Of a stretch of DNA of 64,000 nucleotides, positions 3,103 to 62,041 are shown piece after piece. A program made the translations under genes and the position numbers. The notes under the pieces were generated by a model. It was not told the origin of the DNA. It saw nothing but the letters and a program-made list of their open reading frames with translations, and did not search any database. Origin of the DNA: Parelaphostrongylus tenuis (taxonomy: Eukaryota > Nematoda > Chromadorea > Rhabditida > Metastrongylidae). The DNA is taken from contig JAHQIW010006152.1 of assembly GCA_019055375.1 (NCBI GenBank), positions 62,001 to 126,000 of the forward strand, written 5' to 3'. The first letter of the stretch is position 1; the number at the start of each line of letters is the position of its first letter.

Positions 3103-3460
3103 TAAAGCCTTTCATAGGACTGGTATAGGCAACTCTAGTGATAGACGTACACCTCAGTTTATCTCGCTAGTCTCGTTAGTAGCACGATGCAATTCGGTTC
3201 AAACGAGCCCTCACATCTACGAGTTTCGGCGTGTCGAACAAGTTACACAACACAGCAACTGAAAGGATCGCTTGACACTGAAGTGATCCACAGTCGTTTT
3301 CACCAGCCACCAAGCAATCGGCTGTGATCAATGCAATGTCAAGTGATCTTTTCACTCGGTCGAACAGAATGGCATGTGCTACTGATGAGACTTGCGGGAA
3401 AGCCGAGACGTAGGTTTAGCATTAAAGGTGCAGCACCAAACATTTGAAAGGCATAAAATA
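3103..3460. mobile_element. Ribozyme-bearing inverted-repeat element, family B (left arm)
   Basis: A short element with long inverted ends: gcctttcatagg at the left, and the matching tgaaaggc at the right. Each end contains a hammerhead-like motif pointing outward: minus on the left, decayed at about 3145-3190, and plus on the right at 3376-3422. The same element recurs at 10390-10797 and 20752-21148, with diverged relatives at 21826, 27560 and 61338. No protein is encoded. Confidence 0.65.
3376..3422 (+). ncRNA. Hammerhead ribozyme motif (type I, minimal stem III)
   Basis: CTGATGA sits at 3382-3388. Stem II is about four pairs, and GAGA at 3405-3408 stands where GAAA is expected. Stem III is A-T plus C-G closing a GTAG loop, and the cleavage position is T3416. 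Stem I is GTGCTA with TAGCAT, five Watson-Crick pairs and one G-T. The layout is complete, but the A-to-G change in the GAAA box would be expected to weaken or abolish cleavage. Confidence 0.6.
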
Positions 3461-4219
3461 TGCTATCGCATTATGATGAATTCCAAGCAAAACCAAAACA
3501 GTACAATTGAAACCATTTTCTTTATTTCACCACTTTTACATCAGTGTTATGATGTTCGAATTGTAGCCTGCTGTAGTCGAGCAATGGCTTGGTAATGCAG
3601 TGGTATTATGCTTCCATTTCATATAAGTTGAAAAAGTTGTACACAGCTGTCAGTTATCCGCGCGAGAAATAAGCTGATGTTTTAGATTGATTGGGATTTT
3701 GGAGATTGGCGGGGTTCGAGAGGTGCAAAAATCACTGAATGATATCTGTTACAATGTTCTCGATTACGGAAAAGAAAGGTCCATCAAACCCTAGTGGGTT
3801 TTATTCTATGGTTTGCATCATTCATTATGATGTAACAGTTTCCTATGTGAGCTTACGTCACAGATTTTCGTTCATGTTGAAAACGAGCATAAATCATAAC
3901 GCAAGCACTTCGCGAACGGGCCGTACAAATGTCAGGCTTGGTTTGGACAGTAAGAGGAGCTGGGTAGATAAAGTTTGAAAATTACTGAGAAGCTTTCTTC
4001 ATTGCTCTTATTATATTCTGTACTATACTTAGAGGGTAAGATATGGAAGTTGAAGATGATTTGTACTGAATATGTTGACCCATTCGCATTTGCCACCTAA
4101 GTTATATAGTGCCCATTTTACGACCTCGTGTGAGATGAAGATTTGAGAGTTCCCCTTTCACTACTTCGCCATACGCACCGTTGACTAATAGTGATTAGGT
4201 CATTCCATGGGTTTTTGAC

Positions 4220-4735
4220 ACTAGAGCAATAAACACCAAATTTGTTAGCCAAAAGTAGTTTAGACTGCATAATTTTGACATCATTCAAGTGCGCATTTTC
4301 TTGTGAACATTTTGGTGTTCAACTTGTCTATACTTGCTTCAAGATGGAGCTGTCTTGAGAACAAAGTCGCTTGTTATTCATGCACGAATGGCGCGTAGGG
4401 GAAAATGAGAGTGAAGCTGCGTGCAAGGTGAATAGAGCTTGGAGAGCTGATACGATTGCAGAAATAGTCGACTGGGAAATGGTTCGAGAAGTTTGAAGGT
4501 GTAGAAAATAGTCTGGAGAGTCACTCACGCTTGGGCCGAGTCACTAACATTTCTCCCACGCGTCGTTCGCACATGAATAACAGGCGGATTAGTTCCCACG
4601 ACACTTCCATCTTAAAGCAAGTATAAGGAAGTTCTATACCGAAACGTTCGCAAGAAAGTGTGTAGTTGAACGACACGAAATTTACGCAGTTTTGATTACC
4701 TCTGCTTTATAAATTTGATGTTTACTAAGTTCAAA
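4220..4735. mobile_element. Palindromic mariner-derived foldback element
   Basis: Long inverted arms begin with an ataaacaccaaattt block and end with the matching aaatttgatgttt. Each arm runs inward to an ATG-GAG start and codons of a mariner-like transposase amino end (LLFMHEWRVGEN-like; helix-turn-helix region). The two transposase starts therefore face each other across the centre. The frame is broken and no catalytic domain is present. Copies lie at 11545-12030, 19490-20000 and 38095-38655. Confidence 0.65.
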
Positions 4736-4789
4736 CTATGGAACGGTGTAATGTTATTATTACATTATTTATATATTATTGCCATTATA

Positions 4790-5098
4790 GGTGCGCATGT
4801 GGCGCAGTGGTTAGAGGTGCCTTGCGTCGCACACGAGGTCGCTGGTTCGATCTCGCGTTCATGGCTCGCCAAGCCATTCATACCTCCGAGGTCAGTAAAT
4901 TGGTACCAGACAGGTCTCATATTTGTCTGAGAGGATAAGCAGCACTGACTCGGCTCAGCGGGAGGCCTCCGCGAGTCATTGTAAAGGCCAGATGTGCGTT
5001 CAATCACCTCAAACCAAAGTTAAAAATTGAAGTAGAATGCATGGCGCATCCCTTAGGGACTGATCAACACTGAGAGCTTTATTCTTTTAGCTTTTATT
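4790..5098 (+). repeat. tRNA-derived SINE, family A, with target-site duplication
   Basis: A-box tggcgcagtgg at about 4800 and B-box ggttcgatctc at about 4843, then a unique body, and a tail ending in agctttattcttttagctttt. It is flanked by near-identical ttgccattata stretches, before at about 4777 and after at about 5099. The middle duplicate at about 12070 has the uninterrupted target. Other family A copies lie near 19136, 24150, 25915, 28385, 30250, 39797 and 40330. Confidence 0.85.
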
Positions 5099-5194
5099 GT
5101 GCCATTATAATGTATATAGTCTATATTATATTATTATATTAATTTATATATATTATATATTATTTCATTACAATATTATCCATTTCTTTTGAGT

Positions 5195-5570
5195 TTTTAT
5201 TAAGAGCACGCTCAAATTTCTAATAGATCCTTTCGTTATTCTTTGAGCCATGTCATGTGGTCCGCTAAGGGTTCGTCTACAGGCCGACACACGTGTTTCG
5301 TCCTTACAGACTCGTCGGTCGGGCAGATCCCGTCGTCCTTCGATGTTCTTATTAGTCAGTTCTTTCGGCAGCCTGCTCTCTTTGCAGAGAGATATCAAAA
5401 ACGAGCGTGTTACACTCTGTGTCAAGCGAGATTTCACCTAACACAGAGTGTTATAACAGCACAGAGTCTGTATGCACGAAACACCGTGTATCGGGCTGTA
5501 GAAGAGCCTTTACTAGACCACATGACACGTTGCCTCAAATAATAATGAAAGGATCCATAATTTTAGTGCT
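5195..5570. mobile_element. Ribozyme-bearing inverted-repeat element, family A (left arm)
   Basis: The left end runs from accacgctcaaattt through tgagccatgtcatgtggtc; the right end carries the complement (accacatgacacg, ctcaaataat). The minus-strand hammerhead at about 5285-5327 has CCGACGA in place of CTGACGA, a good GTCT/GGAC stem II and GAAA, but G at the cleavage position. The plus-strand copy near 5460-5505 keeps cgaaacac..gtgtatcggg but has lost CTGANGA. Both look inactive. Confidence 0.6.
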
Positions 5571-6714
5571 AGTACTCATTTGTATATCATTAGTATATCA
5601 TTTATATATTGTTCTATTATTATATTATATTATTTGTCAAAAAACAGCAGGCTCTACAAAAGATCCAAGGGCTGGACTAAAATAGGTTGTCAAACGTTCC
5701 CATATACTAGCACGAAAGTGCTTATATGAGAGCGATAGCGTATATACAATGGCGCGCACACCTTAACAGTGGAGTGCGTCTTCAAACCGGGATCAGTAGG
5801 CTGGGTTGCTCGGTAGTTGACGCATTTCAAAACAACGTCCAACCACCAAAACCTTACGAGCCCGCACACAGACCACCACCGCGACTGCGATGTGCTCGTT
5901 GGGATTGCGACGTATTCCGACGGGGTTTGTATTTTCTAGATAATGTGTACATTTTGCTCGCTCTGAGATTAGGCCTTACGCCATTCTTACACAGGAATAA
6001 CTACCACCAGCAAAAAGTATTTTTCTTCACCATCATCATTAACTTTGGGGCCCCAACGCGAGGACCTTTGTGCATGATATATATTTATACATACATGTGT
6101 ACTGTTTGTTTGTAGACATTCACTAATGTATGTGTTTATGCATCTATGGCATGTGCGTGCATGTAGGATGCGTGTATATGTATGTATGTGTGTGTTTGTG
6201 TGCGTGTGGGATGTGTGTGTGTGTCCGTCAAAAGGTCAAAGACTACGGAGCCCGATCGAAATCCGGCCACCAGGGCTACGACGTCAAAAGTCGGGAGCGT
6301 GTATGTAAACTGAAAAATCGGTGAAGTTTGATTGCGCTAGGCAGCTTTTCGTCTCTAGCTCGACCCTGAGGCTTTGGCTAACGGGCACCCAGAACACTGC
6401 GGGGCTCTGTGAGTAATCAAAGGCTCAGCGTGAGGGCATTACATACGGCAATTTTCTTCAAAATTTCTGCAAATTCGGCGCTCGTGGTAGCCTTCGAGAA
6501 CTGTGGCTGCGACGTCGAGACCTCCTCAGCTCCGATAAAATCCATCTGACTTCAACCTATGTGGATCAAAACCTCTTGGTCGGCAAAGTTTTGCATATCA
6601 CTCAGCAACCCTTATCATATAAGTGCCTAGTTCATTTTTTTTTTCTCAAAAATCGTCCCTCTGCTATCGACCACTCTTTTACAGACCCGCTCAAAGCGAA
6701 ACAATCTGATAAGG
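5571..6714. other. Gene-free duplicated segment with GT microsatellite
   Basis: This stretch is mirrored in the right arm at about 16790-17880, and its first part also in the middle copy at 12640-12915. The open frames (for example 5726-6115) are not kept between the copies and have no recognisable domain. A (TG)n tract lies at about 6178-6236. I see nothing else in it. Confidence 0.5.
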
Positions 6715-7280
6715 ATTTGACTTGTTCTGAGCTTACAGGTCTAGTGCTGTATAGTTTTCGTAGTTTTGGGACTTATCAGTAGCACTCTCTCGTCGGTTCC
6801 GTCGATCCCTTGCGGTTAAATAATTTTCTAAAGGAATCGACGCCGAGTAAAAAATGGTCACCCTCAAGTCGGATGATGATATTACCTGACATTGTGGTAT
6901 CCCGCAGTCAAGCTTGCGGCTTTTATAATTATTATATGTTATATAATTCATTAATTAATACAATTATTATTGTATTATTATTATTTTATGATCATATACT
7001 TATAACTGCATCATGTAATTCGCTAGCTAGTATAAACATTATTGTAATATTATGATTATAATCATTATAAAAGCTGCAAGTTTGACTGCCGGTCACCACT
7101 ACGTCACGTAGAACTATCATTTGACTTAGGATGATCATTTTTTATACGGCGTCGATTCGTTTAGAGAATTATTTAGCCTCAAGGAATCGACGAAACCAGG
7201 GGAGGTGCTACTGATGAGTCCCAATAGGACGAAACAGACGCCTACATAGCACTAGACCTGCCGGCTCAAAACAAGTCATT
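6715..7280. mobile_element. Long-TIR palindromic element with hammerhead in each arm
   Basis: The arms are about 230 bp. The left end reads gacttgttctgagc..aggtctagtgctg, and the right end mirrors it as cagcactagacct-like sequence followed by ggctcaaaacaagtc. The left arm has a minus-strand motif at about 6740-6790 (CTGATAA, GAAA) and the right arm a well-preserved plus-strand motif at 7205-7252. The centre is AT-rich. An inverted copy lies at about 16155-16730. Confidence 0.65.
7205..7252 (+). ncRNA. Hammerhead ribozyme motif with intact core
   Basis: CTGATGA at 7211-7217. Stem II is GTCC/GGAC, four Watson-Crick pairs around CAATA. GAAA is at 7231-7234. Stem I is GTGCTA paired with TAGCAC (7205-7210 with 7247-7252), six pairs. 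Stem III (7235-7245) is poor and the base at the U16.1 position is C, so cleavage may be impaired. The stem II and core match the layout of well-known animal hammerheads. Confidence 0.75.
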
Positions 7281-8968
7281 TCTTTATCAAAAATCATCAT
7301 TTCGCTAACACAAAGCCCATTCTGCATAATCAAAAGCTGGGCTATCTTTAAATGGTCAGGTCGGCATTGACACTGCCGCTTTCACGGTGTCATCCACGTT
7401 ACTGCAGTAATTTCATAAATTCAATACCTATCACTGCACCATATACCGTTTCTAGTGAGAACTCATTCAAACAGACCGCTGAGCAGGTAATGTCCTGACA
7501 GCGTGTCTTCCTCCAGCGGCTTCAATCAACAATTCGAGAACGCTACATTACCAATGGTTGTTGAAAACGTGGCTTCAAAATCTAAAGGCGATGAACGAGA
7601 AAAAAGCTTTGCTTTTTTCCATAGGAAATTTTTTTTCCAGTTATTTGCCGATGTTCTGGTTCAACCCGACATTTCATCGTCGATTTTCGGAAAACTTAAA
7701 ACCTCCACTCGTAGTCAGGATAAAATGGCCATCCTTTTGGATGTACCATGAACAAATGCGTTGGTTTCACATCTATCAAGATTACTTATAGTGACACAAG
7801 TATTCATAATAATTCGATGACAGTTTAAAGTTAAAGCTGTTTATATTTCAGCTATTTGAATAGGCCACTCCGGGAATTGTGGAGATCCCTAACCCTATTT
7901 CCAATTTTTCAACCGTCTGGGTTCCTCGACTATGGTGACGTCTTCGAGCTGCCTCCTGTCTTCGTAAAATCGCTTCTATTTGCGAATGCACGGTTAACGC
8001 TAGCCACGAACACATTCTTCCATCGCCTAGGTGAAGGTCCAAGGAGACGCTTGCTTCACATAGAATCCACCCCACTATTTCTTGCATCCTACTGTCAACT
8101 TTTTCAAGTCCATATGACAGGTCCGGTCCATATGCGCTTTACCAACAATACATATTCATCTCGACCTTGAAAATGGTATAGATTACGAAGATCAGAACTT
8201 TGCATTTTGGCTCATTGTTGTATCTATTGATTATATCTCAAAAGGCACCTTGACACGTTATTATCTCATCACCGTGTTCTTTCTTCTCGCTTTTTTCATA
8301 GTGCGGATCTCAGTACTTCCAGCAATCAATCGCTTTTTCGTCTTCTTCTCAAATGTCTCAAAATACTAATTGCGCACGTCTCCTTGCATTCTCGGGGGTA
8401 ACCTGGCCCTAGTGCTTCATAAAATTTTCGTTTTTGACTGTCGAAGATTACTGAGAGGTTGGGCACGATCCCACGCACCCTTATTGGCGGAGTCTTAGAT
8501 ACAACGAGTGGTCGGTGGAGTCCGGACGGGGACGATTTCCGTGCTCAGCTGTCAAGGTGGATGAAGTGTTCATTTTGTTTTCTCTGAAATAAGGTGCACG
8601 CCATTCTCACAAATAATTACTGTCTCCGAAATAATTTTAGCAAGGACTAGACCCGTTCCATGAAGGTGCCATGTGACCACTATCGGAAGAGCGCCAGGAA
8701 AACACTGCTATCTCATCGATTCCTCACTGTGGTAATTGACGAACTGATGGGACCACATGATCATTCCATCAATCCTTTTTCATCTTATGTGAAAGCAGGA
8801 GAGTGAGTATGCCAGTGATTCAAATACTAATCGCGGAAAAATTTTTTTGATCGCCGTGTTCTATGTGGGAGTCAACGAGTAGTCATTTTGGTTGTGTAAT
8901 TAGTGGAATTTCTTCGGGCTTTGTGGACGTTTTCCATTATTCGTCCATTGAGAATTACTTGCTGATGT
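7281..8968. other. Unassigned inner part of left inverted arm
   Basis: No recognisable gene. A 79-codon minus frame (8087-7848) and an overlapping 104-codon plus frame (7856-8170) are open. They match the right arm, but this is explained by the recent duplication, and neither shows a domain I know. The stretch also contains the segment related to bases 90-350. Confidence 0.45.
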
Positions 8969-10389
8969 TTCACATGTTGCGATTGCTTTTCTAACTTCTA
9001 CAAAAAAGCCCAAAACCTAAATGTCAATCGCATCAAAAGAGCTTCTTTAGGCACTCACCGCCATCTCTGAGTCTTCCAAATACTGACTGAACGGAGTTTC
9101 CATTGTAGACAATGTGCCTTTCCTAGTTACAAATTCAAAGCAGGTCAAAAGAAGAGAGAAACAACGAGATTTGAATCATTATCTACTGATGACGACCTTG
9201 TGTTTACCCACCCCTCACTGCTCCATCTTTGATCAATCATCACGTGTTTAGACGGATCAGCAAAGAGACAAAAACTGGAACCATTTCGTTAACCCAAAAA
9301 GTCGACGGCTTTGTGACGCCGGGACTAGAGATTCAATCAGTGACCGTACTCCCTGACATCTCTTACGACTGCACTACTCGCGAAGTATAACATAACGCTA
9401 CTGTCACACATTGATCATAATATCGGATTGAAATTGAGGTCGATGTCACATGCCGAGATGGAAGAGTTTAGTGATGCTATGCTTGAAGGTCAGCGTAAAC
9501 AGCGACAGATGCTGTTAAATTTTTCGAGACGATATCACAGCGCCTCAGGTCTAGGCTTTTCCTTTGCACTGTCACATTGAAATGAAAGCTGCTTGTTCAA
9601 AAAATTGATCTGGAAAAGAAAAGGAAAGGAGCGGGCGTAGATTGATGGTTTCAATGTAACTGGTTATCAACGATGAGATTACGTTTTGATCGCATGTCGA
9701 ATATTATAATTTGTGTAAAATACGAAGGAATCGAAAGCCTGGGTGTGCTTTCCTAAAAGATCATTCATTGAACAAAAAAAAAATCCCAACGTTTTATTCT
9801 CGCCTTCCTGCCGACTATCGAGCGATATTCCGGAGGTTTCAGTAAATTTGATCATTGAAATCATTTTGCATTCACAATAATCTACCACCTATTGTCTTGA
9901 ATTGATATCCAAAACCACACGGCATTTTGTCATTTTATAGCTTCTTTTTCTTTGACCTTTCTGAATCGTCCACTAAATTGATCTTCCAGTTTTCAAATAG
10001 CAAGGCAAAATGAAAAAGCGAGTACTATATGAACGAAGAATGAAGTAGTCTTCGCAGTAAACAAGCATTGAAAATTCATTCAAATGCTGTCCGTCTGGAG
10101 GAAATGTATATGTGCACAATACCCGTTTGTGGAAAAGAGTCAAGCAGTGGGACAGGCAGATCAGTATGATTTACTCATCTTCAGTCCTACAAGATGAATG
10201 AGATATGCATTTCGATTATATTCAGTTCTGATACACCTACCTCGCATCAGCTAATCAAGATAGGTTTTCTAGATTTTCATATAACAATTAATTATGCCAA
10301 GGTTTATAGAAAGTCTAACTTTTGAATTGTTGCAAAATTTGATGCAAAATCAAAAACAATACACGAGAATTTATTGATAGTACATTTAA

Positions 10390-10797
10390 AGCCTTTCATA
10401 GGACTGGTATGGCAACTCTAGTGACAGACGTACACATCAGTCTATTCACGCTAGACTCATTAGTAGCACGATGCCTTTCGGTTCAACCGTGCCCTCACAA
10501 CTACGAGTATCGGCGTCGAACATGTTACACAACACAGCAACTGAAAGGATCGCTTGACACTGAAGTGATCCACAGTCGTTTCACCAGCCACCAAGCAATC
10601 GGTTGTGAAACAATGCAATGACAAGTGATCTTTCCACTTGACGAGCAGTGTAACATGTTCACCGCCGATGCCATAAGTTGTAGGGGCTCGGTCGAACAGA
10701 AAGGCACGTGCTACTGATGAGGCTTGTGGGAAAGCCGAGACGTTAATCTAGCAGTAAAGGTGCCGTACCAGACCTCTGAAACGCATAAAATGTGCTA
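10390..10797. mobile_element. Ribozyme-bearing element, family B (middle copy)
   Basis: The inverted ends are aaagcctttcatagg on the left and cctctgaaacgcataaa on the right. The left arm has a decayed minus motif (CTAATGA, but a perfect GTCTA/TAGAC stem II); the right arm has the plus motif at 10708-10754. It corresponds to 3103-3460 and 20752-21148. Confidence 0.65.
10708..10754 (+). ncRNA. Hammerhead-like motif, decayed
   Basis: CTGATGA at 10714-10720, stem II GGCTT/AAGCC with five pairs, GAGA in place of GAAA, cleavage position C10748, and stem I GTGCTA with TAGCAG (five of six pairs). The second pair of stem III is lost. Probably inactive. Confidence 0.5.
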
Positions 10798-11544
10798 TCA
10801 GATCATGACGAATTCCGAGCAAGACCAAAACAGTACAATTGAAACCAATTTCTTTATTTCACCACTCTTACATCAGTGTTATGATGTTGGAATTGTAGTC
10901 TGCTGTAGCCGAGCAATTGCCTTGGTGATGCAGTGTTACCATGCTTCCAGTCATATGAACTGAAAAACTTGTGCACAGTTGTCAGTTATCCATGCGAAAA
11001 ACTGAGCTAATGATTAAATTTATCGGGATTTTGGAGATTGGCGGTGTGCGAGAGGTGCAAATTCAATTAATGATGTTCTCGATTACGTAAAAAAGTCGTC
11101 AAACCCTGGTGGGTTTTATTCCATGGCTTATAACATTCATAATGATGTATTAGTTTCCTATTTGAACTTACGTTGCAGGTTTTCGTTCATGTTGAAAACG
11201 CAGCTTAAATCATAATGCAAGCACTTCGCGAACGGGCCGTACCATTGTCAGGCTTAGTTTGGACAGTAAGAGGAGCTGGGTAGATAAAGTCGAAAATTAC
11301 TGAGGAGCTTTCTTCATTGCTCTTCTTATATTCTGTACTATACTTGGAGGGTAAGATATGGAAGTTGGAGATGATTTGTATTGAATATGTTGACCCAATC
11401 GCAATGACACCTAATTTGTATGGTGCCATTTTGCGACCTCGGAGAGATGGAAGACTTTGAGAGTTCCCCTTTACTACTGCGTCACACGCACCGTTGACTA
11501 ATAGTGATTAGGTCATTTCATATGCTTTGGCACTAGAGCAATAA

Positions 11545-12139: not shown

Positions 12140-12520
12140 CTTTCGATTTTTTTATTAAGACCACGCTCAAATTTCAATACATCCTTTCATTATTATTTGA
12201 GCCAACATGTCATGTAGTCTAGTAAGGACTCTTCTACGGCCCGATGCACGTGTTTCGTCCTTACGGACTCGTCAGTCGGGCAGAACCCGTCGTCTTTCGA
12301 TCTTTTTATTAGTCAGTTCTTTCGGGAGCCTGCTCTCCCTGCAGAGAGATATCAAAGGAGAACGTGTAACACACTATGTCAAGCAATATTTCACCTATCA
12401 CAGAGTGTTGTAACACCCAGAGTCCGTAAGGACGAAGCACGTGTATCGGACTGTAGAAATGCCCATACCAGGCCGCATAACATGTTGGCTCAAATAATAA
12501 TGAAAGGATCTTCATTATTA
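12140..12520. mobile_element. Ribozyme-bearing element, family A (middle copy)
   Basis: Left end with gaccacgctcaaattt and gagccaacatgtcatg; right end with cataacatgttggctc. The minus-strand hammerhead at 12239-12281 is well preserved. The plus-strand one near 12425-12470 has GAAG for GAAA and no CTGANGA. Confidence 0.65.
12239..12281 (-). ncRNA. Hammerhead ribozyme motif, near-complete
   Basis: On the minus strand: CTGACGA (12275-12269), stem II GTCC-GTAA-GGAC (four pairs, GNRA-type loop), GAAA (12256-12253), and stem I GCCCGA with TCGGGC (six pairs). Stem III keeps the C-G pair around ACGT, but the conserved U16.1 is C (12246). One substitution separates it from a canonical motif. Confidence 0.7.
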
Positions 12521-14430: not shown

Positions 14431-16154
14431 GTTGTGGCACGTTGCAGAAAGATGATGGAAGAGTCTCAAGAAAAAAAACATCAGCAAGTATGTCTTAATG
14501 GACGAATGATGGAAAACGTCCACAAAACCCATCGAAGTTTTATTAATTACATGACCAAAATGACTACACGTTGACTCCCACATGGAACACGGCGATCGAA
14601 AAAGTTCAATCGCGATTAGTATTTGGATCACTGCCATAACACGCTCTCGTGCCTCCACATAAGATGAAGAAGGATTGATAGAATGATCATGTGGTTCCAT
14701 CAGTTCGTCAATTACCACAGTGAAGAATCGATGAGATAGCTGCGTTTTCCTGGCGCACTTCTGATAGTGGTCACATGGCACCTTCATGGAACGAATATAG
14801 TCCTCGCTAGAATTATTTCGGAGGCAGTAATTATTCGTGAGAATGGCGTGCAGCCTTATTTCAGAGTGAACAAAATGAACACGTTATCCGTCCTTGACAG
14901 CTGAGCACGGAAATCGTCCGCCCGGACGCCACCGACCACTCATTGTGTCTAAGACTCCGCCAATAAGGGTGCGTGGGATCGTGCCCAACCTCTCAGTAAT
15001 CTTCGGCAGTCAAAAAAGAAAATTTTATGAAGCACTAGGGCCAGGTTACCCCCGAAAATGCAAGGAGACGTGCTCAATCAGTATTTTGAGACATTTGAGA
15101 AGAAGACGAAAAACGATTCGATTGCTGGAAGTACTGAGATCCGCACTATGAAAAAGCGAGAAGAAAGAACACGGTGATGAGATAATAACATGTCAAGGTG
15201 TCTTTTGAGATATAATCAATAGATACAACAATGAGCCAAAATGCAAAGCTCTGATCTTCGTAATCTATACCATTTTCAAGGTCGAGATAAATATGTATTG
15301 TTGGTAAAGCGCATATGGACCGGACCTGTCATATGGACTTGAAAAAGTTGACATTAGGATGCAAGAAATAGTGGGGTGGATTCTATGTGAAGCAAGCGTC
15401 TCCTTGGACCTTCACCTAGGCGATGGAAGAATGTGTTCGTGGCTAGCGTTAACCGTGCATTCGCAAATAGAAGCGATTTTACGAAGACAGGAGGCAGCTC
15501 GAAGACGTCACCATAGTCGAGGAACCCAGACGGTTAAAAAATTGGAAATAGGGTTAGGGATCTCCACAATTCCCGGAGTGGCCTATTCAAATAGCTGAAA
15601 TTATAAACAGCTTTAACTATAAACTGTCATCGAATTATTATGAATACTTGTGTCACTATAAGTAATCTTGATAGATGTGAAACCACGCATTTGTTCATGG
15701 TACATCCAAAAGGATGGCCATTTTGTCCTGATTACGAGTAGAGGTTTTAAGTTTTCCGAAAATCGACGATGAAATGTCGGGTTGAACCAGAACATCGGCA
15801 AATAACTAGAAAAAATTTCCTATGGAAAAAAGCAAAGCTTTTTCTCGTTCATCGCCTTTAGAATTTCGAAGCCACGTTTTCAACAACCATTGGTATTGTA
15901 GCGTTCTCGAATTGTTGATTGAAGCCGCTGGAGGAAGACACGCTGTCAGGACATTACCTGCTCAGCGGTCTGTTTGAGTGAATTCTCACTAGAAACTGTT
16001 AATGGTGCAGTGATAGCTATTAAATTCATGAAATTACTGCAGTAACGTGGGTGACACCGTGAAAGCAGCAGTGTCTGCCGACCTGATCATGGAAAGATTG
16101 CTCAACTTTTGATTATGCAGAATGGGCCTTGTATTAGCGAAATGATGATTTTTG

Positions 16155-16730
16155 ATAAGGATATGACTTGTTTTGAGCCGATAGGTCTAGTGCTATGTAG
16201 GCGCCTATTTTCTTCTATTGAGACTCATCCAGTCGCGCCTCCCTCGGTTCCGTCGATCCCTTGACGCTAATTTCTCTAAACAAATCGACGCCGAGTAAAA
16301 AATGATCATCCTAAGTCGGATGATAGTTTTACCTGACGTTGTGGTGACCGACAGCCAAGCTTGCGGCTTTCATAATGATCATAATATAATAATAATACAA
16401 TAATAATTGTACTAATTAACAAATTATATAATGTAATTATGAGTGTATGATTATAAAATAATAATAATACAATGGTAATTATATTGATTAATAAACTGTA
16501 TAATACAATAATAATTATAAAAGCAGCAAGCTTGACTGCGGGTTACCACAATGTCAGGTAATGTCATCATCTGACTTGAGGGTGATCATTTTTTATTTGG
16601 CGTCGATTCCTTTAGAGGATTATTTAGCCGCAAGGGATCGACGGAACCGACGGAGAGTGTTACTGAAGAGTCCCAAAACTACGAAACTATATAGCACTAA
16701 TCATATAGGCTCAGAACAACTCATATCCTT
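16155..16730. mobile_element. Long-TIR ribozyme element, right-arm copy
   Basis: Inverted counterpart of 6715-7280. The plus-strand motif near 16643-16685 has CTGAAGA for CTGATGA but keeps GAAA, a TA cleavage dinucleotide and stem I GTGTTA/TAGCAC. The minus-strand motif near 16190-16245 has lost CTGANGA. Both have decayed differently from their left-arm partners. Confidence 0.6.
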
Positions 16731-17214
16731 ATCAGATTGCTCCGTTTTGAACGGGTCTGTAAAAAAGTGGTCGATAGCAGAGGGACGATTTTTGAGAAAA
16801 AAAAATGAACTAGGCACTTATATGATAAGGGTTGCTGAGTGATATGCAAAACTTTGCCGACCAAGAGGTTTTGATCCACATGGGTTGAAGTCAGATGGAT
16901 TTTATCGGAGCTGAGGAGGTCTCGACGTCGCAGCCACAGTTCTCGAAGGCTACCACGAGCGCCGAATTTGCAGAAATTTTGAAGAAATTGCCGTATGTAA
17001 TGCCCTCACGCTGAGCCTTTGATTACTCACAGAGCCCCGCAGTGTTCTGGGTGCCCGTTAGCCAAAGCCTCAGGGTCGAGCTAGAGACGAAAAGCTGCCT
17101 AGCGCAATCAAACTTCACCGATTTTTCAGTTTACATACACGCTCCCGGCTTTTGACGTCGTAGCCCTGGTGGCCGGATTTCGATCGGGCTCCGTAGTCTT
17201 TGACCTTTGACGGA

Positions 17215-17275: not shown

Positions 17276-17879
17276 CACGCACATGCCATAGATGCATAAA
17301 CACATACATTAGTGAATGTCTACAAACAAACAGCACACATGTATGTATAAATATATATCATGCACAAAGGTCCTCGCGTTGGGGCCCCAAAGTTAATGAT
17401 GATGGTGAAGAAAAATACTTTTTGCGGTGGTAGTATTCCTGTGTAAGAATGGCGTAAGGCCTAATCTCAGAGCGAGCAAAATGTACACATTATCTAGAAA
17501 ATACAAACCCCGTCGGAATACGACGCAACCCTAACGAGCACATCGCAGTCGCGGTGGTGGTCTGTGTGCTGGCTCATAAGGGTTGGTGGTTGCACGTTGT
17601 TTTGAAATGCGTCAACTACCAAGCCACCGAGCCTAAAGATTCCTGTTTGAAGACGCACTCTACTGTTAAGGTGTGCGTGCCATTGTTTATACGCTATCGC
17701 TCTCATATAAGCACTTTCGTGCTAGTATATGGGAACGTTTGACAACCTATTTTAGTTCAGCCCTTGAATCTTTTGTAGAGCCTGCTGTTTTTTGACAAAT
17801 AATATAACATAATAATAGAACAATATATAAATGATATACTAATGATATACAAATGAGTACTAGCACTAAAATTATAGAT

Positions 17880-18240
17880 CCTTTCATTATTATTTGAGGC
17901 AACGTGTCATGTGGTCTAGTAAAGGCTCTTCTACAGCCCAATACACGTGTTTCGTGCATACAGACTCTGTGCTGTTTAACACTCTGTGTTAGGTGAAATC
18001 TCGCTTGACAAAGAGTGTAACACGCTCGTTTTGATATCTCTCTGCAGGGAGAGCAGGCTACCGAAAGAACTGACTAATAAGAACATCGAAGGACGACGGG
18101 ATCTGCCCGACCGACGAGTCTGTAAGGACGAAACACGTGTATCGGCCTGTAGATGAACCCTTAGCAGATCACATGACATGGCTCAAAGAATAATGAAAGG
18201 ATCTATTAGAAATTTGAGCGTGCTCTTAATAAAAACTCAA
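17880..18240. mobile_element. Ribozyme-bearing element, family A (right arm)
   Basis: Inverted copy of 5195-5570. The plus-strand motif at about 18107-18152 has a good GTCT/GGAC stem II, GAAA, stem III with an ACGT loop and A at the cleavage position, with CCGACGA in place of CTGACGA. It keeps a GTA cleavage triplet, whereas its left-arm partner has GTG. Confidence 0.6.
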
Positions 18241-18389: not shown

Positions 18390-19135
18390 AAAAAACAATG
18401 TTCATGAGGAACGGATGGGTTTCTAATGCCCCATTCACGCTCAACGGAACGACAATCTCCGAATGCTCCAGTTACGTCTATCTAGGTCGCGAAATCAACA
18501 TGATGAACGACCTAGCTCCAGAGTTGAGCAGGAGGAAACGAGCGGCTTGGGGAACATTTAAGAGCATCGAAGATGTAGTGAAGAGGACAAAGAACATCCG
18601 ACTCCGTGCCACCTTTTCGACTCGACAATTATCCCTACCCTGACGTATGCAGCAGAAACCTGGTCGCTACGTAAGCAGGATGAAAGATCACTTGCCGTTA
18701 TCGAACGTGCAGTCGAAAGGTCGATGCTAGGAGTATCCCGTATCTCGCAAATGAGAGAAAGGATCCGAAGTTCCGACCTACGTCAACGATCGAAAATGAG
18801 AGACGCCGTTCTACACGCCAGGATATCGAAAATAAGGTGGGCCGGACACGTGATGCGCTTCAACGACAACCGATGCACGAGAGCCTTTACCGAATGGATT
18901 CCTCGAGACGTCAAGCGCTCTAAAGGAAGACCACTGACCCGTTGGTCCGATTTCTTCACGAAAGCGATAGAAGAAAGATATGATGCTCAGCGAATCCCTA
19001 GAGCGAGGAGGACCCACTGGGCTACTCTTGCACGCGATAGGGAAAAATGGAAGAGTTGCTGGTACCCGCTCGAGTCACTTGATGATCAACGGGACGACAG
19101 GTGATACAGGTGACAGGAATGGCAAAAAAGCTAAA
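18390..19135 (+). pseudogene. 5'-truncated RTE-type LINE, reverse transcriptase C-terminus
   Basis: The plus-strand translation, with one frameshift near 18615, gives the typical end of RTE-class polyproteins: a SSYVYLGREI block, TYAAETWSL, a basic region, then KIRWAGHVMR, and finally RRTHWATLARDRE..W. It is inserted into the tail of the SINE at 19136-19440 and is missing from the left arm, so it arrived after the inverted duplication. An AATAAG-rich simple repeat borders its 5' side (18330-18390). Dead copy. Confidence 0.85.
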
Positions 19136-19440: not shown

Positions 19441-19489
19441 ATAATATATAAATAATGTAATAATACTACACCGTTCCATAGTTTGAACT

Positions 19490-22785: not shown

Positions 22786-22786
22786 C

Positions 22787-44661: not shown

Positions 44662-44831
44662 CTGATCAAAACACGGCGCCCACACAACAGAGGAGGAGTA
44701 GACACAACAAACTCACCTCATACTTGTACCTTTATTTCGAGTGCTTTATTAATACCACGCTCAAATTTCAATATATCCTTTCATTACTATATGAGCCAAC
44801 TTGTCATGTGGTCTGGTAAGGGCTCTTGTAC

Positions 44832-44876
44832 AGGCCGACACAACGTGTTTCGTCCTTACAGACTCGTCAGTCGGGC
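44832..44876 (-). ncRNA. Hammerhead ribozyme motif, G at cleavage site
   Basis: Minus strand: CTGACGA (44870-44864), stem II GTCT-GTAA-GGAC, GAAA, stem III A-T and C-G closing a five-base loop, stem I CCGA/TCGG. The nucleotide at the cleavage position (44839) is G, which does not support normal cleavage; otherwise complete. Confidence 0.65.
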
Positions 44877-45146
44877 AAAACCCGTCATCTTTGAACATTT
44901 TATAGCGAGTTCTCTCAGGAGCGCTGCTCCCTTACAGAGAGTTATCGAAGACGAACGTTTTACACTCTATGTCAAGCGAAATTTTCACCCAACACAGAGC
45001 GTTTGCGCACTCCATTGCTCTTTGGCTAATATTTTAACCACATTTTGCTTGACAAAGAGTGTAAAACGTTCGTCTTCGATAACACTCTGTAAGGGAGCAG
45101 AGCTCCTGAGAGAACTGACTATAAAAATATCGAAAGACGACGGGTT

Positions 45147-45194
45147 CTGCTCGACTGACGAGTCTGTAAGGACGAAACACGTGTATCGGGCTGT
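45147..45194 (+). ncRNA. Hammerhead ribozyme motif, canonical
   Basis: CTGACGA at 45155-45161. Stem II GTCT-GTAA-GGAC, three Watson-Crick pairs plus T-G, with a GNRA loop. GAAA at 45174-45177. Stem III A-T and C-G closing ACGT. Cleavage after GTA, A45185. Stem I GCTCGA with TCGGGC, six pairs including one T-G. All conserved core positions are normal. By sequence this is the best candidate for an active ribozyme in the window. It lies about 70 bp upstream of the tandem array on the same strand. Confidence 0.85.
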
Positions 45195-45259
45195 ACAAGA
45201 GCTCTTACCCAGACCACATGACAAGTTGGCTCAAATAATAATGATAGGATCTATTGAAA

Positions 45260-48200
45260 CTCACCTCAGCGGAGAAATAGCCCACATAGGTAACACTTCA
45301 GAAGCAGACCAGAACACGGGAGCCTCACTTCAAAGGCACAGCAAGCACAATTCAGCGGAGGACCGTGCCACAGAGGTAACACTCAAGAAGCAAACCAGAA
45401 CACGGGAGCCTCACTTCAAAGGCACAGCAAGTACAATTCAGCGGAGGACCATGCCACAGAGGTAACACTCAAGAAGCAAACCAGAACACGGGAACCTCAC
45501 TTCAAAGGCACAGCAAGTACAATCCAGCGGAGGACCGTGCCACAGAGGTAACACTCCAGAAGCAAACCAGAACACGGGCGCCTCACTTCAAAGGCACAGC
45601 AAGTACAATTCAGCGGAGGACCATGCCACAGAGGTAACACTCAGAAGCAGACCAGAACACGGGCGCCTCACTTCAGAGTTAGACTAGATAACGTCAGCCT
45701 CACTTCAAAGGCACAGCAAGTACAATTCAGCGGAGGACCGTGCCACAGGAGGTAACATCTCCAGAAGCAGAAACACGGCGAACCTCACTCGAGTAGACAG
45801 TACGTCACCTCACTTCAAAGGCACAGCAAGCACAATTCAGCGGAGGACCGTGCCACCTAGGTAACACTCCAGAAGCAGACGAGAACACGGTAACCTCACT
45901 TTAAAGGCACAGTAAGTACAATTCAGCGGAGGACCGTGCCACAGAGGTAACATCTCAAAAGCGACCAGAACACGGGCGCCTCACTTCAGAGTTAGACTAG
46001 ATAACGTCAGCCTCACTTCAAAGGCACAGCAAGCACAATTCAGCGGAGGACCGTGCCACCTAGGTAACACTCCAGAAGCAGACGAGAACACGGTAACCTC
46101 ACTTCAAAGGCACAGCAAGTACAATTCAGCGGAGGACCATGCTACAGACGTAACACACCAGAAGCAGACCAGAACACGGGAACCTCACTTCAAAGGCACA
46201 GCAAGTACGACCAAGCGGAGGACCGTGCCACAGAGGTAACACTCCAGAATTAGACCAGAACACGGGAACCTCACTTCAAAGCCACAGCAAGTACAATTCA
46301 GCGGAGGACCGTGCCATGGAGGTAACATCTCAGAAGTAGGCCAGAACACGGGAACCTCACTTCACAGGCACAGCAAGCACAATTCAGCGGAGGACCATGC
46401 CACAGAGGTAACACACCAGAAGTAGAGCAGAACACGGGCGCCTCACTTCAGAGTTAGACTAAATAACGTCAGCCTCACTTCAAAGGCACAGCAAGTGCAA
46501 TTCAGCGGAGGACCATGCTACAGACGTAACACACCAGAAGCAGACCAGAACACGGGAACCTCACTTCAAAGGCACAGCAAGTACGACCCAGCGGAGGACC
46601 GTGCCACAGAGGTAACACTCCAGAATTAGACCAGAACACAGGCGCCCCACTTTAAAGCCACAGCAATACAATTCAGCGGAGGACCATGCCACAGAGGTAT
46701 CACTCAAGAAGCAAACCAGAACACGGGAACCTCACTTCAAAGGCACAGCAAGTACGACCTAGCCGAGGACCATGCCACAGAGGTAACACTCAAGAAGCAA
46801 ATCAGAACACGGGAACCTCACTTCAAAGGCACAGCAAGTACGACTCAGCGGAGGACCGTGCCACAGAGGTAACACTCCAGAATTAGACCGAACACAGACG
46901 CCCCACATTAAAGCCACAGCAAATACAATTCAGCGGAGGACCATGCCACAGAGGTATCACTCAAGAAGCAAACCAGAACACGGGAACCTCAATTCAAAGG
47001 CACAGCAAGTACGACCTCAGCCGAGGACCATGCCGCAGAGGTAACACTCAAGAAGCAAATCAGAACACGGGAACCTCACTTCAAAGGCACAGCAAGTACG
47101 ACCCAGCGGAGGACCGTGCCACAGAGGTAACACTCCAGAATTAGACCAGAACACGGGAACCTCACTTCAAAGCCACAGCAAGTACAATTCAGCGGACGAC
47201 CATGCCACAGAGGTAACACTCCAGAATTAGACCAGAACACGGGAACCTCACTTCAAAGCCACAGCAAGTACAATTCAGCGGAGGACCATGCCACAGAGGT
47301 ATCACTCAAGAAGCAAACCAGAACACGGGAACCTCACTTCAAAGGCACAGCAAGTACGACCTAGCCGAGGACCATCCCACAGAGGTAACACTCAAGAAGC
47401 AAACCAGAGCACGGGCGCCTCACTTCAGAGTTGGACTAGATAACGTCAGCCTCACTTCCAAGGCACAGCAAGTACAATTCAGCGGAGGACCATGCCGCAG
47501 AGGTAACATCTCAGAAGCCGACCAGAACACGGGCGCCTCACTTCAGAGTTAGACTAGATAACGTCAGCCTCACTTCAAAGGCACAGCAAGCACAATTCAG
47601 CGGAGGACCGTGCCACCTAGGTAACACTCCAGAAGCAGACGAGAACACGGTAACCTCACTTTAAAGGCACAGTAAGTACAATTCAGCGGAGGACCGTGCC
47701 ACAGAGGTAACATCTCAAAGCCGACCAGAACACGGGCGCCTCACTTAGAGTTAGACTAGATAACGTCAGCCTCACTTCAAAGGCACAGCAAGCACAATTC
47801 AGCGGAGGACCGTGCCACCTAGTTAACACTCCAGAAGCAGACGAGAACACGGTAACCTCACTTTAAAGGCACAGTAAGTACAATTCAGCGGAGGACCGTG
47901 CCACAGAGGTAACATCTCAAAAGCCGACCAGAACACGGGAACCTCACTTCAAAGGCACAGCACGTACGACCCAGCGGAGGACCGTGCCACAGAGGTAACA
48001 CTCCAGAATTAGACCAGAACACAGGCGCCCCACATTAAAGCCACAGCAAATACAATTCAGCGGAGGACCGTGCCACAGAGGTAACATCTCAAAAGCCGAC
48101 CAGAACACGGCGCCTCACTTAGAGTTAGACTAGATAACGTCAGCCTCACTTCAAAGGCACAGCAAGCACAATTCAGCGGAGGACCGTGCCACCTAGGTAA

Positions 48201-57200: not shown

Positions 57201-57904
57201 GAACACGGGCGCCTCACTTCAGAGTTAGACTAGATAACGTCAGCCTCACCTCAAAGGCACAGCAAGCACAATTCAGCGGAGGACCATGCCACAGAGGTAA
57301 CACTCCAGAAGCAGACCAGAACACGGAACCTCACTTCAAAGGCACAGCAAGTACAATTCAGCGGAGGACCATGCCACAGAGGTAACACTCCAGAAGCAGA
57401 CCAGAACACGGGAACCTCACTTCAAAGGCACAGCAAGTACGACCAGCGGAGGACCGTGCCACAGAGGTAACACTCCAGAAGTAGACCAGAACACGGGCGC
57501 CTCACTTCAAAGGCACAGCAAGTACAATTCAGCGGACGATCATGCCACAAGGTAACACACCAGAATAGACCAGAACACGGGCACTCACTTCAAAGCCACA
57601 GCAAGTACAATTCAGCGGAGGACCATGCCACAGAGGTAACACTCAAGAAGCAGACCAGAACACGGGAACCTCACTTCAAAGGCACAGCAAGTACGACCTA
57701 GCCGAGGACCATGCCACAGAGGTAACACTCAAGAAGCAGACCAGAGCACGGGCGCCTCACTTCAGAGTTGGACTAGATAACGTCAGCCTCACTTCCAAGG
57801 CACAGCAAGCACAATTCAGGCGGAGGACCGTGCCACAGAGGTAACACTCCAGAAGCAGACCAGAACACTGACGCTTCACTTCAAAGGCAGACTAGACCAT
57901 GGCA
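45260..57904. repeat. 12.6 kb tandem repeat array with higher-order structure
   Basis: The basic unit is about 86 bp: gtaacact..cagaagcagaccag, aacacgggaacctcacttca, aaggcacagcaagtacaatt, cagcggaggaccgtgccac. A longer variant of about 120 bp adds a gttagactagataacgtcag insert. Variants succeed one another in a repeated order. Segments at 46686 and 50150 are near-identical over long distance (offset 3464 bp), and the gctacagacgtaacacacc marker at about 46140, 49604 and 53150 repeats at about 3.46-3.55 kb. Frames of 66-141 codons recur by repetition only and are interrupted by stops. The right third is more irregular. Confidence 0.95.
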
Positions 57905-57960
57905 GCCTCAAATAATATTTAAAGGATCTATTGAAATTTGATCGTGGTCTTAATAAAGCA
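57905..57960. mobile_element. Right terminus of the interrupted family A element
   Basis: gcctcaaataat..aaaggatctattgaaa (57905-57936) duplicates 45228-45259 on the far side of the array, then runs into the element terminus gatcgtggtcttaataaagc, the complement of the left end at about 44740. Confidence 0.7.
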
Positions 57961-58250
57961 TTGGAAATAAAGGTATGATGTTTAAAAAATACCAGCCAAC
58001 AAGCAATCGAGTGCGCAACACTCTGTGTTAGGCGAAATTTCACTTGACATAGAGTGTAAAAACGCTCGTCTTCGAGGACTCTCTGTAAGGGAGTAGAGCT
58101 CCCGAGAAAATTGACTATAAAAATATCGAAAGGCGACGGGTTCAGCCCGACTGACGAATCTGTAAGGAAGAAACACGTGTATCGGGCTGTACAAGAGCTC
58201 TTACCAGACCACATGACAAGTTGGCTCAAATTATAATGAAAGGTCATAAA
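57961..58250 (+). mobile_element. Second family A ribozyme element, right half
   Basis: Starts at about 57990 in the element centre (agccaacaagcaatcgagtg) and runs through the right arm to ccacatgacaagttggctca. Compared with 45040-45260 it is a close copy. Only the right arm is present, so the array is flanked by a full element on its left and a half element on its right. Confidence 0.65.
58143..58189 (+). ncRNA. Hammerhead ribozyme motif, eight-pair stem I
   Basis: CTGACGA at 58151-58157, GAAA at 58170-58173, stem III with ACGT loop, cleavage after GTA (A58181), stem I CAGCCCGA with TCGGGCTG, eight consecutive pairs. Stem II has an A/A mismatch at its base (ATCT/GGAA). Slightly weaker than 45147 in stem II, stronger in stem I. 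Confidence 0.75.
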
Positions 58251-59014: not shown

Positions 59015-59400
59015 ATTCTTCGTTTCGAATGTTTTATTAAGACCACGCTCAAACTTCATTATGCTTGATAATTCTTTTTTTGAGCTACGCATGTGGTCTG
59101 TTATGGGCACTCGTACAGCCCAATACACGTGTTTCGGTCTTGACGATCCCGTCAGTTGGGCATGCACTTCGTCTTTAGCCACTGCTCTCGGGGGAACTCT
59201 AGATAGATTAGGCGGTGACGCACAATTTACACATGCCGTCAAGTGAAATAAATCACTAGATCGGTAGTGTTGCACACTCGATTGCTCTTGGCTGATATCG
59301 TTAAATATATTACTTCTTTCGTTCTGAGTGTTTTCTTAGGACTACGCTCAATTTTCATTATGCATGATGCATGATATTCCTATTTTTCAAAGACAGGTCA
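59015..59400. mobile_element. Family A ribozyme element in partial direct tandem
   Basis: Unit 1 opens at about 59022 (cgtttcgaatgttttattaa, accacgctcaaac), carries the minus motif at 59118-59161 and ends at gattgctcttggctgatatc (59280-59299). A second unit opens at about 59317 (ctttcgttctgagtgttttc, actacgctcaatt) and is truncated. Start-to-start spacing is about 295 bp. Confidence 0.6.
59118..59161 (-). ncRNA. Hammerhead motif with compensatory stem I
   Basis: Minus strand: stem I GCCCAA with TTGGGC, six pairs. Other family A copies have GCCCGA with TCGGGC, so a G-C pair has become A-T with pairing kept. GAAA, the stem III ACGT loop and GTA cleavage are intact. CTGACGG replaces CTGACGA, which should harm activity. 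Confidence 0.65.
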
Positions 59401-59532
59401 TCAATCAGCAGCAGCAGGACGTGAAAAGCTCGAGGACGTTTGTGGAGAAATGATTGGGAAGAACGAATCAAATGCAAGAAGTCAGGGATTTGACAGTTAA
59501 GTGTGCTGAGAGGTTATCTAATTATCAATCAT

Positions 59533-60612: not shown

Positions 60613-60739
60613 AGTGAACCATATACCTCCAACAACTTCACTTCAAGCACTCTACCTTGAAGATCTATTACATGGTAAAAAGGTACGCAACGAATAAATT
60701 TCACGATGACAGCAACATAGAGTGATGTCAAAACAAGGA

Positions 60740-60812
60740 CAATGTAGTGCAGTGGTTACAACGCAGCACGCGTCCCCGAGAAGGGTAAGGCGCGGGTTCG
60801 ACTCCTTGCCTG
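60740..60812 (+). repeat. tRNA-like SINE, family C
   Basis: A-box tagtgcagtggttac, then cgcgtccccgagaagg, and a perfect B-box gggttcgactcc at 60794-60805. It lacks a pairing acceptor stem and an anticodon arm, so it is a SINE head or tRNA pseudogene. 60813-61337 holds nothing I recognise. Confidence 0.6.
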
Positions 60813-61390
60813 GGGTCCGGAGTTTATATAATTCTCAGCATGTAAGGTGAACAAAGGACAACCACTGAAAAAACTCGACACATGTGGTGATTCCCACGTG
60901 CGCATTCCATGTCACTTTTTAGGCACTTCCTCCAGTGAATTTCCAAAAAAAAGGCCACTCAACGCCTAACGTATCGTCAATCGAAGCGCAATATCTACGT
61001 ATGCCGAAATCAGTAGACATTTCGCTTAGGACCCGACAAAAGTCGGATCCGACTGGGTTTTTTTTTTAAATAGTCGTCCTTTTATTCAGCCATCAAAAAG
61101 GAAAGAAGTGAAACCAGATATTTTGGGTCATAAAGAGGCCAGCCTATTGAGCGTACTCAAAGAGCTACCGTCCAAGCGTGTGCAGACTATTGTGCCCATA
61201 CAGTAGGTCAGATGTTAAACAAAATCTTTGCTCTATTATATGACTCCTCTTGAAATAAGGAGATTCAAAATCAACAGAAAAGCTTTATCATAGTTCTTCA
61301 TTCAATTGCTTCCATAGATCTCGCTCAAAAACAACGGTAATAATGATAACATGTTCTTAGCCTTTTATGAGGTCTGGTACGGCACTTATA

Positions 61391-61437
61391 CAGTATTTGA
61401 CAAGCCAGTTTCGCCTTTCCAAACTCATCAGTAGTAC
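61391..61437 (-). ncRNA. Hammerhead ribozyme motif, intact core
   Basis: Minus strand: CTGATGA (61431-61425). Stem II GTTT-GGAA-AGGC, two Watson-Crick and two G-T pairs. GAAA (61412-61409). Stem III A-T and C-G closing a six-base loop. Cleavage triplet GTC (C61399). Stem I GTACTA with AAATAC, only four of six pairs. The core is fully conserved; stem I is weak. Confidence 0.7.
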
Positions 61438-61663
61438 GGTACCTTCCGATTTAGCCGATCTTTGCAAGCGGATATACCACATGAAGGTTTATAAAAGTAG
61501 TCGAATGAAGAGGTATGACTCATTTTACAAGCCACGACCTCGATTGTTAGTCACCACAATGTCGGAAGATTTTACCACCTAACTTGCGGTGATCGGTTAT
61601 TCGGCAGCAATTCCTCTATATGTAGAGGTATATCCCCTGCAAAGAATCGGCTGAAGCGAACAG

Positions 61664-61712
61664 CACCAACCTCCTGATGAACTTGGAGAAGCGAAACAAA
61701 CCTGTCTGGAAC
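61664..61712 (+). ncRNA. Hammerhead-like motif, partner of 61391
   Basis: CTGATGA at 61674-61680, a short CTT/AAG stem II with A/C at its base, GAAA at 61693-61696, stem III C-G with a six-base loop, GTC cleavage triplet. Stem I pairing is poor (TGG after the cleavage site, nearest CCA is displaced). Confidence 0.5.
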
Positions 61713-62041
61713 TGCATAAGTGCCATACCAGACCTCACAAAAGGCTCAAAACATATTATCATATTATCTTTATCAAAGCCGTAAAAAAAACAACACCTTA
61801 CAAACAGATTGATGATAAAATGGAATATCATTGGGACGCTATCCAATGCTATTCAGAAAAAACCACAATCATTTACCACAACGATATATGATATTTACAT
61901 AACGAGTAACATTACGTACATATTTAGACATGTCTAGTTTGACTAGGCCAGAATGAATACTAAAGATGTCTGCGACATCGAAAACGACCTCTTAGTCCAA
62001 CGGGGACGCGCAATGCATGTACAGGACGGCGTTCGGTAATG

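Follow-up and report, generated by a model that had tools for sequence, protein, structure and literature searches.

Why should a short, dispersed element carry a hammerhead ribozyme in each of its two arms, facing outward, so that a transcript of either strand would bear a self-cleaving motif? The question is raised by a 64,000-nucleotide stretch of the nematode Parelaphostrongylus tenuis (contig JAHQIW010006152.1, positions 62,001 to 126,000; hereafter the window), one stretch of a genome of 481.5 Mb in 5105 contigs. The original prediction made on this DNA named six elements (3103, 10390, 20752, 27560, 44728 and 61338) in two families, and proposed a non-autonomous element in which ribozymes fix the 3' end of each strand's transcript, or the remnant of a circular RNA cycle running in both polarities. 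A different answer is put forward here. The elements are very likely nematode retrozyme copies, moved in trans by a Penelope-like element of the same genome that encodes a reverse transcriptase (RT) and a GIY-YIG endonuclease, and the inverted pair would be a by-product of integration. As read from sequence, the anatomy of the unit establishes its retrozyme-like identity; insertion by a Penelope-like enzyme is suggested by the insertion anatomy that the units and the coding element share.

The hammerheads of the window and their outward arrangement on both strands are real. The window was searched with the Rfam Hammerhead_1 and Hammerhead_3 models and with a descriptor scoring core, stems and cleavage dinucleotide, with 12 Markov-randomised windows as controls for the latter. 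The covariance models, proposed beforehand as a check, gave five type I/III matches at E < 1 (7205+, 12247-, 44842-, 45149+ and 18105+; E 0.0024 to 0.76), all inside elements, although all lie under the Rfam gathering scores. Three sites reached a descriptor score of at least 10, against none in each control; at a score of at least 9 there were six, one of them (36684-) outside the elements, against 0-2, and at 8 or more seven against 1-5. Stems I and II pair in 84.1% of cells in 22 spliced hammerhead rows, against 66.7% after shuffling, and they covary with a score of 0.494, which drops to 0.204 in shuffled rows and to 0.04-0.10 in slid versions; the underlying parse was guided by the motif and thus biased toward structure, and related rows are not independent. 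Each of the six named elements is indeed an inverted, head-to-head pair, and each arm holds a hammerhead or what is left of one; the hammerheads vary in quality. Only one of the 26 parsed arms is fully intact in core, stems I and II and cleavage dinucleotide (45155+, the right arm of 44728). The left arm of this element has G at the cleavage position, GAAA is replaced by GAGA or TGAW in the arms of the 3103, 10390 and 20752 loci, and stem II is nearly gone in the left arm of 27560. The stem III insert is palindromic, reading CACGTG in family A, CGTACG in the left arm of 21830 and TAGGCGCCTA in family C. Hammerheads with a weak stem III are said to act as dimers (PMC7229834, PMC7761336).

With five arms as nhmmer probes, 16 loci were found in the window at E <= 0.01. 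Since the unit probes match one another's families, the nominal two families merge into a single superfamily, which includes all named elements and whose units, ~285-320 nt long, carry a type I hammerhead. Thirteen of the 16 loci are head-to-head (minus unit left, plus unit right), three are direct (32218, 57907 and 59023) and none is tail-to-tail. Outward-facing ribozymes on both strands follow automatically when a hammerhead sits in a head-to-head inverted repeat. A profile built from all 29 window arms found no unit in the reversed window. By shared flanks, judged by eye, and the arm tree, the 13 head-to-head loci reduce to eight independent insertions: three duplicated groups (3103/10390/20752, 5183/12135/17874 and 6707/16153) and five singles (21830, 27560, 41022, 44728 and 61338). 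All six named elements are inverted pairs, and three of them are copies of one insertion. The window holds no frame of 90 or more amino acids with an RT motif, nor of 70 or more with a GIY-YIG motif, in support of the predicted non-autonomous element.

Copies elsewhere in the genome enlarge this picture. A genome search for the hammerhead family, in which 74 of 119,811 candidates were scored, gave at least 31 matches at E <= 0.001, 20 of them above the Rfam cut-off, and none in 14 control genomes. The unit profile matches all 28 hammerhead loci drawn from outside the window (8 + 20), of which L004 duplicates L003 and L006 duplicates L005, leaving 26 distinct loci for the comparison of orientations. 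A further sample of 20 stretches of 10 kb, taken at a fixed offset on contigs already known to hold a hammerhead, contained 12 clusters, namely five minus-plus pairs and seven singles (four at or near a stretch end); the reversed stretches contained none. Extrapolated from these hammerhead-bearing contigs, the genome total would be, very roughly, ~29,000 clusters. Neighbouring units, no more than 250 nt apart, are head-to-head in 32 cases, direct in 8 and tail-to-tail in 1 over the window and 46 other stretches. The window contributes 13 head-to-head and one direct (a piece within 27560), the hammerhead loci 15, 7 and 1, and the fixed-offset stretches 4 head-to-head; the profile misses the three direct loci of the window, whose extra piece falls outside it. 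Paired opposite-strand motifs recur outside the window, as had been anticipated: Rfam Hammerhead_1 lies on both arms in 5 of 20 loci scanned (L013, L017, L025, L027 and L028), with L026 a sixth only if a weak match, HH9, is counted, and at the locus on C2944 the hammerheads of both arms exceed the cut-off. In L016 four units follow one another in direct orientation, their hammerheads spaced by 284-285 nt, and one monomer has a guanine-cytosine (GC) content of 44%; direct neighbours also occur in L009, L019, L021 and the three window loci. An exact pattern search of viral contigs gave no match.

Many whole pairs are bracketed by target duplications of 11-14 bp, and a pair is therefore one insertion. 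The clearest cases in the window are the following.

44721-45256: 44728 pair, the best element, family A, head-to-head; 12-bp duplication AAACTCACCTCA at 44709-44720 and 45257-45268
44721-45034, minus strand: left arm of 44728, with complete 5' end and 3' tail (tail score 68, equalled by 0 of 200 shuffles)
45035-45256, plus strand: right arm of 44728, 5'-truncated and tailless (tail score 13, equalled by 161 of 200 shuffles)
44842-44886, minus strand: hammerhead of the left arm, G at the cleavage position (Rfam and parse)
45149-45191, plus strand: hammerhead of the right arm, the sole fully intact one (Rfam, descriptor and parse)
40976-41508: 41022 head-to-head pair, left arm alone tailed; 11-bp duplication CAGCAAAGGTC at 40965-40975 and 41509-41519

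These duplications of 12 and 11 bp compare with 4 of 300 random placements showing 11 bp or more. End duplications of at least 11 bp were found in 10 of 22 young clusters, against a null of 5 in 1000 random placements at 9 bp or more, and 15 duplications are 72% AT, against 60% in the sample. In 44728, 41022 and the 5183 group a single arm is tailed: none of 200 shuffles equalled its tail score, whereas at least 161 of 200 did so for the opposite arm. The signal is weak in the left arms of 61338 (3 of 200), 27560 (8) and 6707 (1) and the right arms of 27560 (2) and 16153 (5), and the shuffle test detects none in the remaining head-to-head window loci.

The two ends of a pair are unequal in a regular way. 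On the coordinates of L016, where the hammerhead cuts after position 231, all eight duplication-flanked pairs have one arm ending at 305-324 and the other at 247-287. The ends, left/right, are 318/273 in L005, 247/323 in L013, 264/324 in L014, 274/322 in L017, 287/305 in L019 (278/310 with an alternative 15-bp duplication), 319/269 in L020, 323/270 in L026 and 272/320 in L028. When six pairs without duplication are added (L002, L003, L007, L010, L025 and L027, their ends set by local alignment only), 13 of the 14 pairs combine an end at 305 or beyond with one at 289 or before. Direct or single insertions stop at either site (265 in L016, 277 in L024, 323 in L021), so that the short site can also be the only 3' end of an insertion. 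Copies flanked by duplications thus end, on their 3' side, 16-93 nt past the cleavage site. The arms overlap by a few bases at their junction or have filler of that length between them, except in L017, where ~120 nt of AC-rich filler at about 1729-1849 could be untemplated or copied synthesis. A constant start of the short arm at the inner palindrome of the unit, which the window loci had suggested, was not upheld in the larger set.

A candidate for the mobilising machinery was found in one of the fixed-offset stretches, L032. It holds a Penelope-like element with RVT_1 and GIY-YIG domains on single frames (5206-6540+ and 4072-5406-) and a further RVT_1 frame, 6847-9111+, interrupted before the endonuclease. 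Relatives of the protein are named in Necator, Ancylostoma, Haemonchus and other nematodes, among the 7991 candidates sharing most words that were scored. The element is arranged as a head-to-head palindrome of 3 kb (3797-6815; 99.5% alike) and, in addition, as a partial direct tandem with a period of 2985. Its hammerhead cores, CTGAAGA...GAAACGTC, lie at 3861-, 6751+ and 9735+, the first two facing outward; they were identified by the descriptor and are not listed by Rfam up to E 5. The whole, 3802-9864, is bracketed by a 12-bp duplication (3790-3801/9865-9876), and its arms end 60 and 130 nt past the core. It stands at the end of a family A pair that has its own 11-bp duplication (3412-3422/9873-9883) and a unit hammerhead with full core at 31.6 bits, just below the Rfam cut-off. 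A single composite insertion was considered for the two, but the 12-bp and 11-bp repeats fit two nested insertions better. In a protein search of the genome, all 95 copies scored, of 27,670 candidates, are 96-100% identical; 14 of them have open frames of 893 amino acids, and their neighbours within 6 kb, tallied by eye, are head-to-head in five cases, direct in three and tail-to-tail in none. The original prediction had found no known class with such an inverted arrangement; head-to-head copies are in fact known for Penelope-like elements (PMC3846280), and the L032 element does the same. Close to the long end, no more than about 20 nt from it, the tails of the left arm of 44728, L014 and the L032 Penelope-like element carry CACTCG, CGGTCG and CAGTCG, a weak shared pattern that is possibly an RT recognition site.

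The history of the arms was followed in trees. In the window, left and right arms are sisters in four of seven insertions (supports 97/90 for 41022, 90/69 for 61338, 89/83 for 27560 and 100/100 for the 6707/16153 group), unresolved in three and contradicted with support in none; a 43-row tree pairs the two arms as sisters in each of L041, L021, L020 and 44728. Pairs are thus made at each insertion, since palindromes moving as units would group by side, although gene conversion between arms would also yield sister arms. On the arm tree, the ten core positions underwent 1.0 change before insertion (0.10 per column, against 1.32 in the flanks) and 18 after it (1.80 per column, against 1.75; Fisher p 0.0006). 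None of 5000 draws of ten flank columns was as conserved as the pre-insertion core. This holds in four runs (0 of 5000), which include a maximum-likelihood tree and the removal of doubtful pairs or of family B; in the same runs the post-insertion core is at or modestly below the flanks, with 2591, 1296, 1743 and 403 of 5000 draws as low. The core is conserved in source lineages and then changes at about the flank rate after insertion: the ribozyme is selected, but not as a pair, and the inserted pairs decay near-neutrally, as is established for the window copies.

These observations can be assembled into a scheme. A tandem or circular RNA of several units would be made, and the hammerhead would process it in active lineages, as core conservation and covariation suggest. 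A Penelope-like protein would then cut an AT-rich target in its two strands at positions 11-14 bp apart. Reverse transcription would begin within the unit RNA at either of two sites ~50 nt apart, which correspond to the end positions observed. Extension would usually take place on both target strands, with the long site used for one and the short site for the other. The resulting complementary DNAs (cDNAs), variously truncated at their 5' ends, would be joined in mid-element by a short overlap or filler, as the observed junctions suggest. The inserted pair would finally decay about neutrally. The outward ribozymes on both strands would be a by-product of this two-strand extension and joining. 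More tentatively, and with rather less than even confidence, Penelope-like integration in this worm may normally be two-sided, with a separate cDNA primed from each target strand and with the strands using different RNA start sites ~50-70 nt apart, in the same way for retrozymes and coding element. If this is true, a one-long/one-short rule common to both would make retrozymes clear trans-clients of Penelope-like machinery.

Several results weigh against this retrozyme reading. The resemblance of unit tails to the tail of the Penelope-like element is no more than suggestive, 41-175 of 1000 shuffles doing as well, and trans-mobilisation therefore rests on shared insertion anatomy. The other 14 of the 16 window loci show no duplication, or short or AT-rich matches up to 10 bp; 10 of the 22 young clusters have no recognisable duplication and two have only 8 bp. 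L016 is among the former, with a 12-bp repeat ~20 nt outside its aligned end, and L002 carries two short ends (273/287). The left arm of L014 groups with that of L028 (98/74) and not with its own right arm, and several pairs are unresolved. With family B excluded, the post-insertion core changes at 0.70 against 1.18 in the flanks, the run in which 403 of 5000 draws are as low. The hammerhead is the minimum-energy fold in none of four pieces folded; at 45138-45216 it reaches -13.1 against -22.1 kcal/mol for the best fold, in an energy model that omits tertiary contacts. Finally, the 5' ends of insertions do not favour the cleavage site, where 1 of 39 arms begins, so that ribozyme processing of the template draws no support from insertion ends; the idea that these ends mark the hammerhead cut was rejected, an apparent case at 59433 having failed on alignment.

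Among the alternatives, the one that survives best is a variant within the Penelope-type reading, plausible though the less favoured: priming would occur on only one target strand, and the end of the cDNA would fold back and be extended by self-copying into the second arm, which falls ~50 nt short of the start. Self-priming has been proposed for head-to-head Penelope copies (PMC3846280), the arms of one insertion are mostly nearest kin, and an inner near-palindrome lies near the unit 5' end, with opposite-strand self-matches at profile positions 19-83. However, the short end occurs as the lone 3' end of L016 and L024 and so acts as a start site, the shorter arms start over a wide range (about 15-182) rather than at the palindrome, and a Penelope-like enzyme cuts and extends both strands in vitro (PMC11167929). 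Two-sided priming is, on balance, modestly preferred to fold-back copying.

A functional inverted pair, with ribozymes trimming both transcripts, or a relic of a both-polarity viroid-like RNA, as originally proposed, is now very improbable. Hammerheads on both arms in a quarter of the loci scanned, 5 of 20, count in its favour, and a transcript of either strand would carry one. Constraint on the core nevertheless vanishes after pairing, pairs form anew at each insertion, many are flanked by target duplications, and the coding Penelope-like element has the same geometry. A role in defining 3' ends also agrees poorly with 5' ends at the cleavage site in a single arm and 3' ends well beyond it, and ribozymes kept by selection, as a both-polarity viroid-like RNA implies, are not seen once the arms are paired, when the core changes at about the flank rate. 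Scarcely credible as well is a foldback DNA transposon, or miniature inverted-repeat transposable element (MITE), that acquired a hammerhead and is transposed as a whole palindrome. The elements are short, non-coding, palindromic and dispersed, and hammerhead-free palindromes are also present (31381-31773 and 38077-38662); a MITE would however show a fixed duplication length, equal ends and a palindrome inherited whole, whereas the duplications vary between 11 and 14 bp, the ends are unequal, direct tandem copies exist, and resolved arms group by insertion and not by side, L014 excepted. Chance motifs in unrelated inverted repeats, to which the sub-threshold Rfam scores of the window might point, can practically be dismissed given the stem covariation, the 20 of 31 genome matches above cut-off against 0 of 14 control genomes, and the reversed controls devoid of unit matches.

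The units can be set beside four known systems. Metazoan non-long-terminal-repeat (non-LTR) retrozymes (PMC7229834) share with the units a type I hammerhead, ~300-bp tandem monomers, low GC, the lack of an RT or GIY-YIG frame, target duplications of more than 4 bp and Penelope-like elements in the same genome. The young copies studied here have indeed an intact-core type I hammerhead, tandem monomers within 150-450 bp, from dimers to multimers, low GC and duplications above 4 bp. They differ in being mostly head-to-head pairs, not direct multimers. The main text of PMC7229834 contains neither "nematod" nor "inverted". The inverted pseudo-LTRs of Penelope-like elements (PMC3846280) share head-to-head repeats, one of them tailed, target duplications (8-10 bp there, 11-14 bp here) and a palindrome near the unit 5' end; the present units differ in lacking RT and endonuclease, both encoded by the separate L032 element. 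The Anolis Penelope element (PMC11167929) likewise has ends at internal RT start sites and AT-rich targets. Both target strands are cut and extended there in vitro, where the present case is drawn from the sequences of insertions, and hammerhead cleavage was reported to be unneeded in vitro. The minimal type I hammerheads of Penelope-like elements (PMC7761336) have the core and near-absent stem III of the L032 element (GAAACGTC), and the units differ by their palindromic stem III insert (CACGTG in family A, TAGGCGCCTA in family C).

A search of titles and abstract openings, most subscription papers being outside its coverage, showed no nematode retrozymes, no inverted retrozymes and no long/short end rule among the papers listed. 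Penelope-like elements have been called a strong candidate for the mover of animal retrozymes (PMC7229834), and relatively little is said to be known of integration by Penelope-like enzymes (PMC11167929). Here retrozymes and Penelope-like elements share one genome and an insertion anatomy, and the rough sample suggests thousands of natural copies. The one-long/one-short end rule is a sharp constraint on Penelope-like integration, and the comparison before and after insertion is a simple test of whether a genomic ribozyme is selected in place or only in its source.

The remaining loci of the superfamily in the window are the following.

3088-3475: 3103 head-to-head pair of family B, duplicate of the insertion also present at 10373 and 20733 (nhmmer, profile)
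10373-10806: 10390 head-to-head pair, family B (nhmmer, profile)
20733-21153: 20752 head-to-head pair, family B, reverse copy of the 3103/10390 insertion; GAGA core at 20826-
21807-22266: 21830 head-to-head pair, family B (nhmmer, profile)
27552-28141: 27560 head-to-head pair, rearranged; left hammerhead with stem II almost lost
6698-7300: 6707 head-to-head pair, family C; Rfam hammerhead 7205-7252+
16142-16738: 16153 head-to-head pair, reverse copy of the 6698 insertion (nhmmer, arm tree)
61343-61770: 61338 head-to-head pair; core at 61431- intact, stem I weak
5222-5556: 5183 head-to-head pair; inner half of the right arm deleted (nhmmer, profile)
12176-12511: 12135 locus, copy of the 5183 insertion; Rfam hammerhead 12247-12294-
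17874-18207: 17874 locus, reverse copy of the 5183 insertion; hammerhead 18105-18147+ with CCGACGA core
32201-32585, minus strand: direct partial tandem (one unit and an upstream 3' piece); hammerhead core 32354-
57891-58250, plus strand: direct partial tandem; hammerhead-like core near 58151+
59015-59433, minus strand: direct partial tandem; hammerhead-like core near 59155-

The 44728 element lies at the left edge, and the 57907 locus at the right edge, of an array of 86-bp tandem repeats running from 45257 to about 57900; three copies were measured at 45266-45500 and the extent was judged from frames. The other long palindromes, 31381-31773 and 38077-38662, have neither a unit-profile match nor an Rfam hammerhead. 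A frame at 18562-19101 (plus) resembles by eye the end of a non-LTR reverse transcriptase, without a Pfam match. A Mos1-type HTH_48 transposase fragment occupies 33965-34351 (minus), with an inverted repeat at 34180-34526/34625-34954. A metastrongyloid nematode is the most likely host, to judge from an F-box associated (FBA) gene at 62045-62593 (minus), whose best relative, a Parelaphostrongylus tenuis protein, shares 84% identity with it; an Angiostrongylus cantonensis protein shares 70%.

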